Below, piece by piece: positions 32,359 through 63,927 of a stretch of 64,000 nucleotides of DNA (positions are counted from its first letter, which is position 1; each line of letters begins with the position of its first letter). The position numbers and the translations under genes were made by a program. Source of the DNA: Eubacterium sp. (lineage in GTDB: Bacteria; Bacillota; Clostridia; Peptostreptococcales; Anaerovoracaceae); NCBI GenBank assembly GCA_017533915.1, contig JAFWHX010000018.1, positions 62,001 through 126,000 on the forward strand. The letters are read 5' to 3'. The notes beneath the pieces were generated by a model that ran no database searches, was not told where the DNA came from, and was given only the letters and a program-made list of their open reading frames with translations.

Positions 32359-34050
32359 TTATTCTTCTGTAAACTTCTTCACGAACTCCTCTTCAGGAAG
32401 CGGCCTGGAGAAATAGAACCCCTGTATCGTATTGCAGCCGACGCTCTTAAGAAAGTCCAGTGTTTCTTTATCTTCCACGCCTTCAGCCACGACCGAGATG
32501 TTAAGATGTTTTGCTATGTCCATTATCAGGCTTATCATCGTCTCGCGCCTCTCATCGGATTTCAGGTTCTTGACGAACGTCATATCCAGCTTGATGACGT
32601 CGACCGGGATCTGGGCAAGCATCGCAAGTGATGAATATCCGGTCCCGAAATCATCCATCTCGACCTTGAATCCTTCTGTCCTCATGTGGCCTACGACATC
32701 GATCAGCTGATCGGAATTATCCATATATGCGGACTCGAGGATCTCCAGGTACAGCTTGCTTCCGCTGACGCCGTTCTTGTCCAGCTCATTTTCTATATAA
32801 TCTATCAGATTGTGGTTATACAGGTCCATTCTGGAGATGTTGACCGAAAGAGCGATCTCCTTTCCGTACTTCTCCTTCCATGACGCCATGTATTCGATAG
32901 CCTTTTTCCATATATAGAAGTCCAGCTTCTGGATAAGGCCGTTCTGTTCGAACAGCGGAATGAACTCTCCCGGGCTTATCATCCCGAGCACAGGATGCTT
33001 CCAGCGCACCAGAGCTTCTGCGCTCGTAAGATAAGGCTTTTCCTTTTCAATATTGTATTTCGGCTGGAAATATAGCACGAACTGTTCCTGCTCAAGCGCG
33101 TCATCAAACTCAGAGAGAAGCTGAGCCTGCCTGAGCTTTTCGCCGTGTATCTCGGCGTCATAATACGATACGCCCGAATGATACTCGTCGACCACTGTAT
33201 TCTGTGCCTGGATCGCTCTGTCAAATCTCCGCTCTATCTCTATGGTCTTGTCCACATCCACGTACACACCGCAGCGTATCTTGACTTTGATGTCCGGGAA
33301 CGATTCAAAGTGCTGGTTCACATCTTCTGCAAGCTTGCCGTAATCCATCTTTCCGGACGGCATGTATACCAGGAACTGATCCGCGTCTACTCTGCACGCC
33401 ATGCAGCCTGTTCTGTCACGAAGGTCTTCAATGTACGAACCCATGTGACGCAGCACATCATCTCCGGCGAGCCTTCCGTGAAGCTCGTTGATAAGATGGA
33501 AATTATCGATATTCATCGCGACAGCATCCATTTTCTGATCCTCATGGAACCTGTCGTATTTCTCAGCATAGCTATAGAAATAATTCCTGGTGAACAGGCC
33601 TGTCATATCCTCGCGCTCAGTCTCCAGGATCAGCTTCCTGTCCTCATAGAGCTCGATCGTCCTCTCCATCCTGGCTATCACGACTTCAGCCTGTTCAAAC
33701 GGCTTAACTATGAAGTCTGACGCACCCATATGGAGGCATTCTACTTCTGCTGATTCCTCAGAAGTCAGTACGAGCACTGGAAGCTCCGAAAGATCCGGAT
33801 CCTCTTTCATCACCTTCAGCACTTCAAATCCATCCATTTCCGGCATCTTCAGGTCAAGCAAAACCAGCGAAAGCGTCTTTGCTTCGCGCCTCATTATTTC
33901 CAGCGCTTCTTTCCCGTTCGACGCATAGAGCACATCATAATCACGCTCAGTAATGAATCCGAGAAGCTCCCTGTTCACCTGCTCATCATCGACGATAAGT
34001 ATCTGCCTCTTGGCATTAACCAAACGAAATATCGCTTTATCTTTTACCAT
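32359..34050 (-). CDS. Response regulator with degenerate GGDEF and intact EAL domain (c-di-GMP phosphodiesterase)
   Basis: The 563-residue protein has three domains. A receiver (about 15-130) has an acidic pocket in ILIVDDE and the phospho-Asp in LVLLDLKMPEMDG. A GGDEF-type domain (about 145-300) has its signature decayed to RVDADQF, so it should not make c-di-GMP. An EAL domain (about 320-560) has catalytic motifs present: SAEALVRW, LSVNISR, LEILESA, DDFGTGYSS, VIKLD and VAEGVE. The likely activity is c-di-GMP hydrolysis controlled by phosphorylation. Of several ATGs I took 34050, 5 nt after GGAG; 34053 is equally possible. An HPt gene follows. Its promoter carries a perfect inverted repeat. 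Confidence 0.92.
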   Translation of the reverse strand: MVKDKAIFRLVNAKRQILIVDDEQVNRELLGFITERDYDVLYASNGKEALEIMRREAKTLSLVLLDLKMPEMDGFEVLKVMKEDPDLSELPVLVLTSEESAEVECLHMGASDFIVKPFEQAEVVIARMERTIELYEDRKLILETEREDMTGLFTRNYFYSYAEKYDRFHEDQKMDAVAMNIDNFHLINELHGRLAGDDVLRHMGSYIEDLRDRTGCMACRVDADQFLVYMPSGKMDYGKLAEDVNQHFESFPDIKVKIRCGVYVDVDKTIEIERRFDRAIQAQNTVVDEYHSGVSYYDAEIHGEKLRQAQLLSEFDDALEQEQFVLYFQPKYNIEKEKPYLTSAEALVRWKHPVLGMISPGEFIPLFEQNGLIQKLDFYIWKKAIEYMASWKEKYGKEIALSVNISRMDLYNHNLIDYIENELDKNGVSGSKLYLEILESAYMDNSDQLIDVVGHMRTEGFKVEMDDFGTGYSSLAMLAQIPVDVIKLDMTFVKNLKSDERRETMISLIMDIAKHLNISVVAEGVEDKETLDFLKSVGCNTIQGFYFSRPLPEEEFVKKFTEE

Positions 34051-34173
34051 CATTTCTCCTCGTTCAAAAAACAGTCCTCTGCTGCACAGCACTTGCTGTC
34101 CCAAGCCAGTACCATATCGTCAATTACTGTTACTGTCTAAAACCAGTGCTCCTGTATTGTTTCATCCTTAGAC

Positions 34174-34225
34174 CTGTATACAACTATACAGTTAACATTA
34201 TAATACCAGCCCGCTTAAAAGTGAA
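34174..34225 (-). promoter_or_regulatory. Promoter and inverted repeat upstream of the REC-EAL gene
   Basis: On the minus strand, TTCACT (34220-34225), a 17-bp spacer and TATAAT (34197-34202). Just downstream, CTGTATA and TATACAG (34174-34180, 34185-34191) form a perfect 7-bp dyad with a 4-nt centre at about +1 to +20, an operator-like position. Confidence 0.5.
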
Positions 34226-34252
34226 TAGCCACAGTTTATCATTATTTTGCTG

Positions 34253-34485
34253 CACTTTTCCATCAAACCCCCCTCATTTTTCTACGGAATCATCCCTTCT
34301 GGCTTCTTCCTGTAGAAAAACTCGTGCTTTCTCTTCGTTTTATTACACTTTTCCATCAAAACCTCCTCATTTTTCTACGAAATCATCCCTCCCGGCCTCT
34401 TTCCGTAGAAAAACTCGCGCTTTTCATCCGATTTATTACACTTTTCCACCAAAACCTTCTCATTTTTCTACGGAATCTCCGCCCG
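34253..34485. repeat. 93-bp tandem repeat with internal hairpin, 2.5 copies
   Basis: Units start at 34253, 34346 and 34439 (exact 93-bp period); the third stops near 34485. Each begins CACTTTTCCA and contains TTTTTCTACGGA followed about 20 bp later by a near-complement ending GTAGAAAAA, so each full unit can form a long hairpin. No open frame runs through it, so it is noncoding. Confidence 0.85.
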
Positions 34486-34506
34486 CGCTTATTTATAGCA
34501 GATGGA

Positions 34507-34670
34507 GTTAGTATAAAAATACTAACACTTGCCTGATCTTATACTAACTTTAAGCACTTAGTGCAAAACAGTTAGTATAAAAATGCTAAAATTTGTCTGT
34601 TTTTATACTAACTTTAAGTATGTAATGCAAATGAGTTAGTATAATTATACTAACATTTGCTTTTGATATA
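34507..34670. repeat. 64-bp dyad repeat array, locus 1 (2.4 copies)
   Basis: Units start at 34507, 34571 and 34635, exactly 64 bp apart. Each starts GTTAGTAT then AAAA (AATT in the third), then ATACTAAC or a close variant. The first and third dyads are perfect. A further TATACTAAC occurs 14 bp downstream in the first two units. The same family forms the array at 62526-62845. The third unit decays after about 25 bp. Confidence 0.9.
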
Positions 34671-34740
34671 TCCACTTCTTAGATGAGAAGAGTCAGGATT
34701 GTTGATGATCCAAATCACTATCCATCCGAGCATTCCCATA

Positions 34741-34769
34741 TTGCGATGGCGATGATTTCAGCATATTAT
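34741..34769 (+). promoter_or_regulatory. Candidate galK promoter
   Basis: TTGCGA (34741-34746), a 17-bp spacer and TATTAT (34764-34769). It would give a leader of about 165 nt that contains the 22-bp repeats. Confidence 0.4.
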
Positions 34770-34838
34770 AGTAGTACGATGGTAGAATATAGCACGATAG
34801 AAGAATGTTCTACTTTTATTTACAGATCGATTGGACCA

Positions 34839-34926
34839 TATCGGCTGATTGATCGAATCGTATCGACGTTTTGATCGGATCGTATCGGCTGATTGATTGA
34901 ATCGTATCGGCTACTTAATCGGAATG
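34839..34926. repeat. 22-bp tandem repeat, four copies, upstream of galK
   Basis: Units at 34839, 34861, 34883 and 34905, each about 22 bp with consensus GTATCGGCTGATTGATCGAA plus TC. The last unit ends 16 bp before the galK start codon, so the array lies in the presumed leader. There is no coding frame. Confidence 0.8.
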
Positions 34927-34942
34927 AAAGGCAGTAGAAGAC

Positions 34943-36154
34943 ATGACTGAATATATGAAAGACACGGTATTGGCAGAATTCTTTGATAATTACGGCAGCG
35001 GCGGCGATATCGCCTGCTATTTCGCGCCGGGCAGGATCAACCTTATAGGCGAGCACACAGATTATAACGGAGGCCACGTCTTTCCATGTGCACTGCCATT
35101 CGGAACCTATATCGCTGTTCGAAGACGTGATGACGCTGTGCTCAGGCTGTCATCTGTGAACTTCCCGAAAGACGGCATCATCACTACAGACATCAGATCC
35201 CTTACTCCGCTTTCTGACAGCAGCTGGACTTCATATGTAAAAGGCGTGATCTGGGCAGTACTGGACAGAACAGACAGTGAGATCACAGGCATGGACATAA
35301 TGATTGGAGGCGACGTACCTGCTGGCGCGGGTCTGTCTTCATCCGCATCACTTGAAGTCGCGGTCGGATACATGCTGAGCGATCAATTCGGGCTTGGGTT
35401 TTCAAATCAGGAAATCGCTCTTATCGGGCAGCGTGCAGAGAATGATTTCGTCGGAGTGAACTGCGGTATCATGGATCAGTTCGCTTCTGCCATGGGCAAG
35501 GAAGATCATGCGATCTTTCTGGACACAAACACTTTAGAATATGATTACGTTCCTCTCTCGCTGAAAGACTGCTCGATCATCATAGCCAACACGAATAAGC
35601 CTCATTCACTGAACGATTCAGCATACAATGACAGAAGGCGCGAGTGTTCAGAAGCGCTCAAAGAGATAAACGCTTTCCTGCATGCCTATCCTGATTCCGA
35701 TGAAGCCTCGGCAGGAGATATAGATGCTCTCTGCCAGCTTAACCAGGAAGATTTTGACCGGGTGAAGGAATGCATAACGGATCCTGTGATACTCAGAAGA
35801 GCACGCCATGCTGTGACTGAGAATCAGCGGACGGAAGACGCCGTGAAAGTCCTTCAGGCTGGCGACATAGATGCGTTCGGAAAGTTGATGAACGCGTCAC
35901 ATGTATCTCTCAGAGACGACTATGAGGTCTCATGTCCGGAGCTCGACCTTCTTGCCGAGACTGCATGGACTATCCCCGGCGTGATCGGGTCGCGCATGAC
36001 GGGCGGCGGATTTGGTGGCTGTACTGTCTCCATCATCAAAAACTCATCTGTTGATGAGTACGAGAAGATCGCAGGAGAGAAATACCGCGAAGCTTTTGGG
36101 TATGATTGTACATTTATTCGTGGAGCTGCTGGAGACGGGCCACGCCGACTATAA
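34943..36154 (+). CDS. galK: Galactokinase
   Basis: Phosphorylates galactose to galactose-1-phosphate, the first committed step of the Leloir pathway. The 403-residue GHMP kinase shows the galactose-binding PGRINLIGEHTDYNGG (about 30-46), the ATP-binding GDVPAGAGLSSSASLE (about 120-135) and the third motif MTGGGFGGCT near residue 350. The ATG at 34943 has a modest AAGG site 11 nt upstream. galT follows on the same strand and completes the pair; no epimerase is in the window. The last coding bases and the stop codon are part of a tandem duplication that continues into the spacer before galT. Confidence 0.96.
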   Translation: MTEYMKDTVLAEFFDNYGSGGDIACYFAPGRINLIGEHTDYNGGHVFPCALPFGTYIAVRRRDDAVLRLSSVNFPKDGIITTDIRSLTPLSDSSWTSYVKGVIWAVLDRTDSEITGMDIMIGGDVPAGAGLSSSASLEVAVGYMLSDQFGLGFSNQEIALIGQRAENDFVGVNCGIMDQFASAMGKEDHAIFLDTNTLEYDYVPLSLKDCSIIIANTNKPHSLNDSAYNDRRRECSEALKEINAFLHAYPDSDEASAGDIDALCQLNQEDFDRVKECITDPVILRRARHAVTENQRTEDAVKVLQAGDIDAFGKLMNASHVSLRDDYEVSCPELDLLAETAWTIPGVIGSRMTGGGFGGCTVSIIKNSSVDEYEKIAGEKYREAFGYDCTFIRGAAGDGPRRL

Positions 36155-60842: not shown

Positions 60843-61269
60843 TAACTTCGATCCGGAGCTCGTTTCGTCCTTCCACCTCGCCTTCAAGGCTTACGTGATA
60901 GTCTACTTCCACATTACCGGTGCCGTTTTCATCAATATTGTTCTCCACACGGTCTGTGAGGATCTCCATATCCATTTCGCCGTACGGAGTCTCGTATGTG
61001 CTCGTGAAGCGCTTCCCACTTTCGAACTCCATTACCGTACCGTCGCCCAGGTCCTCGCCGATTCTCTTCATCCTCACGCGCGAGCCCTGCAGCTTGAGGC
61101 TGGTCTTGCAGCCTGGGAATCCAGAGAACTCACTTTCGTCATAGACCAGATAAGTCGCGCCGTTACGCTCGAACATCTTGCCCTCAGTGATGAACTCCAT
61201 CTTGTCCATCGGCTTGTCACCGTCGTACTGTCTCCCTGTTATTTTTAGCATTATATCTTTCATATCCAT
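60832..61269 (-). CDS. DUF1934 family protein (YwiB-like)
   Basis: The 145-residue protein has the calycin-like pattern of DUF1934: ITGRQYDGDKPMDKMEFITEG, a YLVYDESEFSGFPG strand pair, and a long beta region ending VEVDYHVSLEGEVEGRNELRIEV. Function unknown; in Bacillus the homologue lies near argS. AAAGGA 9 nt upstream supports the ATG at 61269, which makes it overlap the ddl 3' end by 53 nt in another frame. It is followed by 34-bp repeats that copy its own end. Confidence 0.85.
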   Translation of the reverse strand: MDMKDIMLKITGRQYDGDKPMDKMEFITEGKMFERNGATYLVYDESEFSGFPGCKTSLKLQGSRVRMKRIGEDLGDGTVMEFESGKRFTSTYETPYGEMDMEILTDRVENNIDENGTGNVEVDYHVSLEGEVEGRNELRIEVTDA

Positions 61270-62266
61270 AACCCACTATCCTTTCGATGAGTTCTGTGAA
61301 TGACACCCCTGCTGCCTTCCACAGAGTCGGGAACATGCTGAATCTTGTAAATCCCGGTATCGTGTTTATCTCATTAAGGTATATGTTCCCGGTTCCATTC
61401 TCTATCATGAAGTCGATCCTTGCGAATCCTTCACAGTCGAGCACTTTGTATGCCTTCGCCGCGATCGCTCTGATCTGCTGTACTGTCTCATCCGGAACGT
61501 TCTCTGCCGGAACTGTCACGACTGTACCGACATCGTCCGAATACTTGGCTTCATAATCGTAGAAATCGTTCGCCGCTACGATCTCTCCTATCCCTGTGAC
61601 CAGCGGCGTCTCATTTCCGATGACTCCGCATTCAACTTCACGTCCGTCTATGCCGCGCTCAACGATTATCCTTCTGTCAAATCTCGCGGCTTCCTTGAGT
61701 CCTGCCCTAAGCTCTTCTGTATTCCTCACCTTGGAGATCCCTACACTTGATCCAAGGTTTACCGGCTTCACGAACATCGGATAAGGAAGCTCTTCTTCGC
61801 AGTCTTTTATGAACGGCTCCGGATCCTTTTTCAGCTCATCCGATGTCGTGTTCAGGAATTCCACGGTCGGAACTCCTTCAGCCAGGAAACAGAGTTTTGC
61901 TGCTTCTTTATCCATGGCGAGCGCTGATCCGAGCACGCCGCACCCCGCGTACGGAATGTCTAGCATCTCGAACACTCCCTGAAGCTTTCCGTCCTCACCG
62001 TATGCTCCATGCATGATAGGGAGAGCAAAATCTATAAGCTTCGGAAGGTCGCCCATGCTCATCGGCTCCGCTGACTTTTCCCATGTGCCGTTCTCTATAT
62101 CCTCTACCGGCCCGTCATACCGGAACCATTTTCCTTCTTTGTTGATACCTATATATATAAGGTCATGCTTCTCCTTATCAATAGCATTGATAACAGCTGC
62201 CGCCGAGATACATGACACCTCGTGCTCCGTAGATTTTCCCCCGAAGAAAACACCTATTCTGTCCAT
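61217..62266 (-). CDS. ddl: D-alanine--D-alanine ligase
   Basis: Makes D-Ala-D-Ala for peptidoglycan precursors. The 349-residue ATP-grasp enzyme starts MDRIGVFFGGKSTEHEVSC and has MHGAYGEDGKLQG, VKPVNLGSSVGISKV, the metal/ATP residues in LNEINTIPGFT, and a terminal helix ELIERIVGYGYER with a short basic tail. I chose the ATG at 62266 for its AAGGAGG 8 nt upstream; the frame stays open 19 codons further. No van-type operon is nearby, so it is the housekeeping ligase. It overlaps DUF1934 by 53 nt, which implies coupling. Confidence 0.96.
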   Translation of the reverse strand: MDRIGVFFGGKSTEHEVSCISAAAVINAIDKEKHDLIYIGINKEGKWFRYDGPVEDIENGTWEKSAEPMSMGDLPKLIDFALPIMHGAYGEDGKLQGVFEMLDIPYAGCGVLGSALAMDKEAAKLCFLAEGVPTVEFLNTTSDELKKDPEPFIKDCEEELPYPMFVKPVNLGSSVGISKVRNTEELRAGLKEAARFDRRIIVERGIDGREVECGVIGNETPLVTGIGEIVAANDFYDYEAKYSDDVGTVVTVPAENVPDETVQQIRAIAAKAYKVLDCEGFARIDFMIENGTGNIYLNEINTIPGFTRFSMFPTLWKAAGVSFTELIERIVGYGYERYNAKNNRETVRR

Positions 62267-62341
62267 TTCAGGCCCCTCCTTTGTAAAAAAGCTCATACCT
62301 TGTTTTATTTTACCATAAAGCACCGCAAAGGGACAGGGGCA

Positions 62342-62425
62342 AATCGAATCCGCTACACGTAATCGAATCGAAACTACTACACGAATCGAATCTACTACAC
62401 GTAATCGAATCGAATCCGCTCGACA
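62342..62425. repeat. AATCGAATC-type short tandem repeats after the ddl promoter region
   Basis: AATCGAATC recurs at 62342, 62361, 62384 and 62403 with spacing 19, 23 and 19 bp, alternating with variants of CGCTACACGT. The same words occur in the 22-bp array upstream of galK (ATCGAATC). No coding frame is visible. Confidence 0.65.
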
Positions 62426-62525
62426 ATTTTTCTCAATGCCGGGATGTACACCATACGCAGCTTAAGCCATCCAAGGGTGTCGTGATCAAAACAAAATGCT
62501 GGTCGGCATCCATATGAGAAATCGC

Positions 62526-62845
62526 GTTAGTATAAAAATGCTAATAATAGTCAAAAAGTATACTAACTTTCAGCAGTCAATGCAGATCAGTTAGTATAAA
62601 AGTTCTAACACATGTCTGTTTGTATACTAACTTCCAACAGTCAATGCATATTAGTTAGCATAAAAATGCTAACACTTGTCTATTTATATACTAACTTCCA
62701 ACAGTCTATGCATATCAGTTAGCATAAAAATGCTAACACTTGTCTGTATGTATACTAACTTTCAGCAGTCGATGCAGATCAGTTAGTATAAAAGTTCTAA
62801 CACTTATCTGTTTGTATACTAACTTCCGCTGCACAATGAGAGGTT
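62526..62845. repeat. 64-bp dyad repeat array, locus 2 (five copies)
   Basis: Units start at 62526, 62590, 62654, 62718 and 62782, exactly 64 bp apart. Each begins GTTAG(T/C)AT-AAAA, then ATGCTAA or GTTCTAAC, and has TATACTAAC about 14 bp on. Units 3 and 4 have GTTAGCAT paired with ATGCTAAC (perfect dyad), whereas locus 1 has GTTAGTAT with ATACTAAC: the paired positions change together. The last unit decays after about 50 bp. Confidence 0.92.
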
Positions 62846-62903
62846 ACGGATATTTCAAAAGCCGATTCAAGCTCAAGCTCCAGGGACAATAGCACCACCT
62901 TCA

Positions 62904-63056
62904 GGACAATATCACCTTCCGGATAGCACCAGCTTCTGGACAATATTACCTTCCGGATACCATCACCTTCCTGACCGCACCACCTTTAGGACAGCACTAT
63001 CTTCCATACAGTGTCACCTTCCGGACAGCTCCATCTTCCATACAGCGTAGGGATCC
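62904..63056. repeat. 17-bp degenerate tandem repeat, about nine copies
   Basis: Nine consecutive 17-bp units from 62904, consensus near GGACAGCATCACCTTCC, each with a few differences. A related 20-bp unit precedes it at 62884. Seventeen is not a multiple of three, and no frame stays open, so it is noncoding. It lies between the 64-bp array and the SDR promoter. Confidence 0.85.
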
Positions 63057-63115
63057 TGGCGGTTTGTACTAAATAAAATACATAGCCGGTATGTATAGAA
63101 TGCGCTGCGGCCATG

Positions 63116-63147
63116 TGGTATAATATACTTTGTTAATAAATAAACTA
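63116..63147 (+). promoter_or_regulatory. Promoter of the SDR gene with Rex-like site
   Basis: An extended -10 TGG-TATAAT (TATAAT at 63119-63124) is followed at about +1 by TTGTTAA (63130-63136), four bases, and TAAACTA (63141-63147), which matches the second Rex half TTAACAA at 5 of 7. Confidence 0.5.
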
Positions 63148-63186: not shown

Positions 63187-63927
63187 ATGAGACTTGAAAA
63201 CAAAGTAGCAATCGTAACAGGCGCAACATCAGGAATGGGCCGCGCAACAGCAGTTCTGTTTGCAAAGGAAGGCGCTAAGGTCGTAGTATGCGGAAGAAAT
63301 GAAGAGCGCGCAAAGGCAGTCGTAGATCAGATCAAGGCTGACGGCGGCGAAGCTATCGCAGTACTCGGCGACGCTTCTGACCTTGCTTATGCAGAAGAAA
63401 TCGTAAACAAGACTGTAGAAGCTTTCGGAACAGTCGACGTTCTCGTAAACAACGCCGGAATGCTGAGCATGTCCACACTTCAGGACGTCAGCATCGAGGA
63501 ATGGGACAGAGTATTCAGAGTAAACGTTGATTCAGCACTGAGACTCTGCCAGCTCTGCGCTCCTATCATGAAGGAAAAGGGAAAGGGCGTCATCGTTAAC
63601 GTCGCTTCAGTTGCTTCATTTGCAGCTCATCACGGATTTGCAGCTTACATCTCATCCAAGCACGGCATGGCAGGACTGTCCAAGTCAATGGCATGGGAGC
63701 TTGGTCCTGAGATCAGAGTAAACGCTATCGCTCCTGGCGCTATCCACACTGCAATGGTAGACAGCATCGGCGGACCTGCAGTTCTCCAGGGAATGATCGA
63801 CAACTGCCCATGCAAGAGGATCGGCAAGCCGGAAGATATCGCTACTGTAGCTCTCTTCCTCGCAACAGATGATTCTTCATTCATCGACGGACAGATCATC
63901 AAAGTCGACGGCGGATTCGAGTGCTAA
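63187..63927 (+). CDS. SDR family oxidoreductase (FabG-like)
   Basis: Short-chain NAD(P)-dependent dehydrogenase of 246 residues. It has the cofactor loop TGATSGMG (12-19), the NNAG motif in VLVNNAGML, the catalytic Ser in VNVASVAS, and Tyr and Lys in YISSK. The end [12 protein letters not shown] is typical. It is most like 3-oxoacyl-ACP reductases and hydroxyacyl-CoA dehydrogenases, but family members act on many alcohols and steroids, so the substrate is open. AAAGGA lies 7 nt before the ATG. A strong terminator follows, so it is monocistronic. The Rex-like site at its promoter suggests a redox role. Confidence 0.93.

Follow-up and report, generated by a model that had tools for sequence, protein, structure and literature searches.

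A modular, species-specific family of intergenic repeats in a Eubacterium genome, putatively bound by a dimeric or oligomeric protein

Our analysis of a 64,000-nucleotide stretch of DNA from Eubacterium sp. (the window, positions 62001 to 126000 of contig C7 in an assembly of 2.19 Mb and 21 contigs that is 97% complete) revealed two tandem arrays of a 64-bp unit that belong to a family dispersed over the genome. We consider it an even chance (probability of roughly 0.5) that this family is a modular, species-specific intergenic repeat similar to BIME and BOX elements, free of a RAYT transposase, with words that turn over and that are bound by a putative dimeric or oligomeric protein. The larger array (array 1, 62526..62823, plus strand) consists of five units that start at 62526, 62590, 62654, 62718, and 62782, the last of which stops after its third word. 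Each unit carries the word F (GTTAGTATA) at positions 1 to 9, R1 ((N)TACTAAC) at positions 13 to 20, and R2 (TATACTAAC) at positions 34 to 42, with offsets of 12 bp from F to R1, 22 bp from R1 to R2, and 30 bp from R2 to the next F. The five units 64 bp apart from 62526 that had been described by a previous sequence-only reading were recovered by TRF (62526 to 62827, period of 64, 4.7 copies) and by a unit pattern with up to three mismatches, which matched seven times in the window and never in 100 shuffled sequences. The 22-bp spacing of R1 and R2, start to start, was read directly in the units as well, but the array proper stops at approximately 62823 and not, as proposed there, at 62845. 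The same reading held that the symmetry of the dyad is kept. This is true of units 3 and 4 (GTTAGCAT...ATGCTAAC) but not of units 2 and 5, in which GTTAGTAT...GTTCTAAC is mismatched; unit 1 reads GTTAGTAT...ATGCTAAT, and over 26 units the whole dyad scores like shuffled alignments.

Array 2 (34507..34654, plus strand) comprises two complete units followed by an F-R1 dyad, with starts at 34507, 34571, and 34635, and was called by TRF at 34506 to 34660 (period of 64, 2.4 copies). Approximately 30 bp ahead of it lies an array of a second, 93-bp family (TTTTTCTACGGAA ... TTCCNGTAGAAAAA, 34253..34477, plus strand), which is of the type referred to below as type B. Array 1 is located between the divergent genes of a D-Ala-D-Ala ligase (61217..62323, minus strand) and a short-chain dehydrogenase (63187..63927, plus strand), and array 2 between those of a response regulator with GGDEF and EAL domains (32359..34104, minus strand) and a galactokinase (34943..36154, plus strand). 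Several unrelated short tandem repeats lie beside each array, within 62330 to 63120 and 34110 to 34940. They include an 18/24-bp repeat (62342..62417) and a 17/34/51-bp repeat (62889..63039) in the intergenic region of array 1 and a 22/44-bp repeat (34839..34923) in that of array 2, all on the plus strand. Intergenic tandem duplication seems to be abundant in this genome.

A search with the dyad pattern and with a 64-position sequence profile derived from 26 units located nine loci of the 64-bp family, on contigs C1, C3, C4, C6 (two), C7 (two), C15, and C21. The sequence-only reading had reported sharing with one second locus; the array at 34507 is real, but the extent of the sharing had been understated. 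The family totals 36 units, with three to five units per array (35 listed and a degenerate third unit on C1). None of the 150 candidates scored, out of 693, was a convincing isolated unit, and the sole match outside the arrays at an E value of ≤10 was on contig C9 (E value of 0.79).

The profile yielded no match at an E value of ≤0.1 in 16 congeners (up to 150 candidates scored per genome) and none at an E value of ≤10 in Eubacterium sp. RGIG5802 from sheep ileum, the nearest named relative in a search with the Ddl protein (87%). The region upstream of ddl in RGIG5802 contained neither an array nor a tandem repeat of period 64. The exact unit pattern did not occur in 84,980 species genomes or in viral contigs, sets from which the own or very near genomes are possibly absent. 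A phage or plasmid origin was dropped, as blastn against phage and plasmid collections returned no match for the 64-bp repeat. A dyad pattern with two mismatches matched in 12 of 40 other genomes at one to four places each; these matches were taken as chance because they are scattered and their total is below that of a reversed-pattern control. The 64-bp model also gave weak matches in the L054 genome (E values of 0.046 and 0.46), which were again taken as chance. Tandem repeats sampled from the genomes G005 (104 kb), G008 (200 kb), and G012 (320 kb) included no comparable dyad array at periods of 40 to 200 bp and at least 2.3 copies, with the exception of one 184-bp repeat in G012 (L221:3297-3874, 3.1 copies, 99% identity), which contains the inverted repeat AAAACTCCG/CGGAGTTTT. 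A 101-bp tandem repeat of G008 (L211:1687-2299, 6.0 copies at 91%) has a consensus without an inverted repeat of ≥7 bp, and 32 kb sampled from G004 held one unrelated repeat only. The nearest congeners are at most 81% identical in RlmH, and the rlmH neighborhood of 14 congeners offered no clean empty site. Because the congeners are this distant, absence from them gives no argument against function, and conservation across species could hardly be shown with congeners so distant and matchless. We found no published description of these repeats in the open-licence PMC literature; one could still be in print. Collectively, these data indicate that the 64-bp arrays are dispersed, locally multiplied, species restricted, and intergenic.

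The units differ mainly outside the words. In 26 of the 36 units, half-site columns differed by 6.9% between arrays and by 4.7% within arrays, and all other columns by 47.7% and 20.1%, respectively, which makes the half-sites approximately seven-fold less divergent between arrays. None of 100,000 random sets of 25 columns matched this conservation. The half-site columns were picked after their conservation had been seen, which makes the contrast figure descriptive; support that is independent of the choice of columns comes from the inverted symmetry that the three words show. In addition, 25 of 26 steps from F to F measured exactly 64 bp and the remaining one 63 bp. A satellite that arose by slippage and drifts with its sequence not under selection would fit the presence of unrelated tandem repeats in both intergenic regions of the window, in a genome that seems to duplicate intergenic DNA readily, as well as the closer similarity of units within arrays than between them and the lack of matches in the relatives searched. 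It is nevertheless highly improbable, given the seven-fold contrast, the constancy of the 64-bp step despite 48% divergence, the nine dispersed loci, and a like spacing rule in two further families. The sequence-only reading had equated missing conservation in relatives or missing covariation with drifting satellite DNA. Neither matches in relatives nor covariation was found, yet the equation does not hold, since the half-sites and their spacing persist across linkers that differ at about half of their positions. Its verdict that the array is not a CRISPR was borne out, the whole unit being repeated, with no unique spacers and with linkers that are alike within the array (mean difference of 20%).

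The inverted words could also act in a transcript. As a transcribed hairpin series, with F paired to R1 or R2, the arrays would serve as a terminator, an attenuator, an RNA decoy, or an antitoxin-like RNA. The five-unit array indeed folded more stably than shuffled sequences (z of −3.5 as RNA and −4.2 as DNA), and two F-R1 dyads of array 1 passed a terminator-like scan in which 0.4 were expected. However, stable folding follows from any kept palindrome, and three of the nine arrays lie between divergent genes. At columns 6 and 15, the 26 units contained 16 U-A, two C-G, and two U-G combinations and six unpaired ones. The covariation score of F and R1 was reached by 136 of 500 shuffles, and that of F and R2, which showed no change on both sides, by all 500. 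No Rfam family matched the window at gathering scores. These results do not bear out a hairpin series with kept symmetry as it had been offered in the sequence-only reading, and we regard this alternative as very unlikely, even if the stable folds and the two terminator-like dyads may still lend an RNA role some support. Since pairing comes without covariation, what is kept is not a hairpin but a duplex-DNA word at a set spacing, and the evidence indicates selection on both at the level of DNA. The other proposal of that reading, an array for a DNA-binding protein, is the one best backed by the conservation of half-sites and spacing.

The second family of the same genome is built in a similar manner from the word TCTACAGA. 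Its 93-bp model gave 151 matches on both strands (best E value of 1.7 × 10−25) at no fewer than 23 places, to which the type-B array in the window adds a 24th. Type A arrays alternate as F-56-R-37 and type B arrays as F-28-R-65, and the junction of the two is usually 32 bp. Among 228 distances between neighboring words in 23 loci, we counted 80 FR56, 57 RF37, 8 RF36, 30 RF65, 21 FR28, and 15 A/B junctions of 32 bp; 211 distances, RF36 included, fit the spacing rule and 17 depart from it. Each place was counted once, and the locus in the window, which has no run of five words, was omitted. An alignment of 85 units from 21 loci revealed a word that is nearly invariant on its right side and linkers that vary, as in the 64-bp family. 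For columns 73 and 82 in this alignment (84 units, one antisense row being left out of the column-pair count), we obtained 29 AT, 24 GT, 21 AC, 8 GC, and 2 other combinations. The two columns vary independently, and it is therefore the duplex word that is kept and not a stem; the compensatory stem changes expected of a structured RNA were supported in neither the 64-bp nor the 93-bp family.

The two families also meet. Arrays of 93 bp adjoin 64-bp arrays on C1, on C4, and near 96 kb on C7, and three of nine 64-bp arrays have their midpoints within 500 bp of that of a 93-bp array. By chance, three would fall within 600 bp with a probability of 2 × 10−4 over the whole genome, or of 0.04 if all arrays had only an assumed 15% of intergenic DNA open to them. 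Twenty further 93-bp loci lie between co-directional (9), divergent (5), convergent (4), or unknown (2) gene pairs. In 6 of 16 congeners, the 93-bp model gave weak matches (E values of 0.015 to 0.095), which were taken as chance. Two 93-bp arrays, L173 and L174, are situated at the ends of contigs C9 and C14, so the repeats may break the assembly and the unit numbers there are lower bounds. Another tandem repeat of the same genome (L115:14867-15090 on C15, period of 73 bp, 3.1 copies) contains the palindromic words TTGTACAA and TGTATACA and is perhaps a third family of the same design.

An array with yet another word was found in one congener, G006. Its TTCCGC arrays have a period of 91 bp and offsets of 29, 22, and 11 bp, and the pattern matched 120 times in G006 and not once in the other 16 genomes of the genus. 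Of 150 neighbor distances in nine loci, 70 were FR29, 35 RF22, 30 RF11, and 10 FF40 or FF41, with 5 others. At FF40 and FF41 one word is lost and the period stays. In the G006 arrays L185, L191, and L198, one half-site per 91-bp unit is lost, giving 29-22-40 instead of 29-22-29-11 with the period still at approximately 91 bp; at these three loci the spacing has outlived the word. The offsets of 11, 22, and 29 bp suggestively resemble the 12, 22, and 30 bp of the 64-bp family, although the numbers depend on how the word is cut. The sites had been proposed to lie on one DNA face, and 64 bp does correspond to 6.1 turns at 10.5 bp per turn, but 93 bp corresponds to 8.86 and 91 bp to 8.67 turns; helical phasing is no general rule across the three families.

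The GC skew of G006 switches from minus to plus between 1.655 and 1.680 Mb, the conventional mark of the origin. Eight of ten places of the TTCCGC family, among the matches listed, lie within 350 kb of 1.667 Mb (P of 0.002, or 0.012 with three close places merged), a threshold that was set after the data had been seen; the mean distance to the skew-inferred origin alone gave P values of 0.010 and 0.017. The two places outside are a dyad pair at 0.271 Mb and a single dyad at 2.301 Mb, and an independent search agreed on all places except the single dyad. Six of the nine 64-bp loci could be placed on G006, of which 22% was covered, five of them at 835 to 1,109 kb and one at 165 kb from the origin. 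With five of six mapped loci far from the origin, origin-proximal placement is no rule shared by the families.

We examined the genes beside the nine 64-bp arrays and saw no evident shared pathway. The neighbors scanned encode PPDK, FeoB, galactokinase, Ddl, a class I tRNA synthetase, FTCD, a flavin/iron-sulfur redox enzyme, DUF1848, and RlmH. Judged by open reading frames of ≥100 amino acids, four arrays are flanked by co-directional, three by divergent, and two by convergent genes. There is at most a slight chance that the arrays are operators of one transcription factor and mark the control regions of its regulon. The F-R1 dyad is shaped like an operator, and the array at L015 is situated 13 bp upstream of rlmH, immediately after a gene for an ArsR-type regulator. 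In G005, however, the same ArsR-type gene adjoins rlmH at its other end (by eye) and no array was found there. The scanned neighbors without a common pathway and the occurrence of all three gene orientations, including two arrays between convergent genes, led us to reject a regulon.

The loci on C3 and C7 share more than the array. The left flank of array 1 (62426..62525, plus strand) is 84% identical to that of the C3 array over 98 bp, and the homology continues from there through the array and for approximately 14 bp to its right, to about 62837 in the window. The shared flanks suggest that a block was probably copied between loci and that the two loci are probably copies of one larger block; outside neighboring 93-bp arrays, flank sharing was confined to this pair. 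This copying would also suit a nonautonomous mobile repeat of the MITE or REPIN kind, moved by a transposase that binds the half-sites and serving no host function, as would a repeat that is dispersed, intergenic, and species restricted within the searched set. The arrays start and stop inside the unit, and by eye every 64-bp array opens with an F word and closes with an R word, which gives it inverted ends. On the other side, no target-site duplication was seen by eye at the nine array ends, and there is no convincing isolated unit of the sort that REPs usually show. The Y1_Tnp domain is the domain of RAYT transposases. It was the one transposase family sought (PF01797, E value of ≤0.01) and had no match in the own genome, while the same search was positive in 6 of 14 control genomes; on this basis, RAYT-driven REPs were rejected. 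A mobile repeat of this kind is a possible but unlikely explanation. It should be noted that selfish spread of the repeat and a host function, be it in the nucleoid, in segregation, or in supercoiling, would leave much the same marks.

Under the preferred reading of a modular repeat bound by a protein, the unit consists of three copies of a 7- to 9-bp word (GTTAGTATA / TATACTAAC) at fixed offsets. The similarity within arrays indicates that units have multiplied in register at a locus, and the shared C3 and C7 flanks that a whole block was probably copied between loci. The words would be duplex-DNA sites of a putative sequence-specific protein, dimeric or oligomeric, which could fill several half-sites at set distances and build up a multisite nucleoprotein complex. 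With the complex formed at set distances, selection would keep word and spacing and ignore the linkers. The 93-bp and TTCCGC families would be of the same kind with other words, which implies that the design persists from species to species and the word turns over. We further considered, as a quite unlikely extension, a fast-evolving array system in which each species has its own word at nearly the same offsets (12/22/30 here and 11/22/29 in G006) and a putative DNA-binding protein that co-evolves with it. Such a system would be the bacterial counterpart of centromere satellites that turn over rapidly, with an organizing or segregation role near the origin in at least one species.

The closest known kinds of elements are BIME-2 and BOX elements. 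REP/BIME repeats with RAYT transposases are best known from proteobacteria, and REP and BIME-2 elements occur in enterobacteria and Pseudomonas. Like them, the 64-bp and 93-bp repeats are extragenic palindromic modules with species-specific words, tandem clusters, regular spacing, and alternating orientation, and the palindromic unit of 20 to 40 bp, clustered with fixed linkers, agrees with the REP/BIME description. BIME-2 binds DNA gyrase (PMC2817692), and REPs are defined by a palindrome that bears GTAG or CGTC as a tag on one of its ends (PMC3733652). In contrast, the consensus palindrome of the 64-bp family lacks such an end tag (by eye), and the 93-bp word TTCTGTAGAC holds GTAG inside the arm and not as an end tag. 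The 64-bp family also numbers 36 units rather than >100, all within nine arrays (150 of 693 candidates scored), and does not avoid divergent intergenic regions. Membership among REP/BIME elements fails on the tag, the transposase, and the isolated units. BOX elements of Streptococcus pneumoniae are dispersed intergenic composites whose tandem inner module varies in copy number (PMC3049150). The 93-bp composite of types A and B, which usually meet at 32 bp, comes close to them in design, but no modules like boxA or boxC were seen at the ends of the 64-bp arrays. The MIRU of mycobacteria resemble the 64-bp arrays in being tandem, dispersed, and intergenic, with units some tens of bases long; to our knowledge, inverted half-sites at fixed offsets are not what defines a MIRU unit. 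Elements of the parS type consist of several short palindromic sites that collect a protein, and the concentration of the G006 family near the skew-inferred origin is reminiscent of them. The 64-bp word, which we take to differ from the canonical parS palindrome, instead occurs in arrays of three to five units at set spacing, and most of the mapped 64-bp loci are remote from the G006 origin.

In summary, two families of strictly spaced repeats occur in a genome that yielded no Y1 domain, and one of its congeners has a third family, which uses a different word at similar offsets. If no binder is found, these families would provide a clean case of repeat spread without a Y1 transposase. If a binding protein is found, the contrast between words and linkers would give a direct handle on the turnover of arrays and their binder between species.
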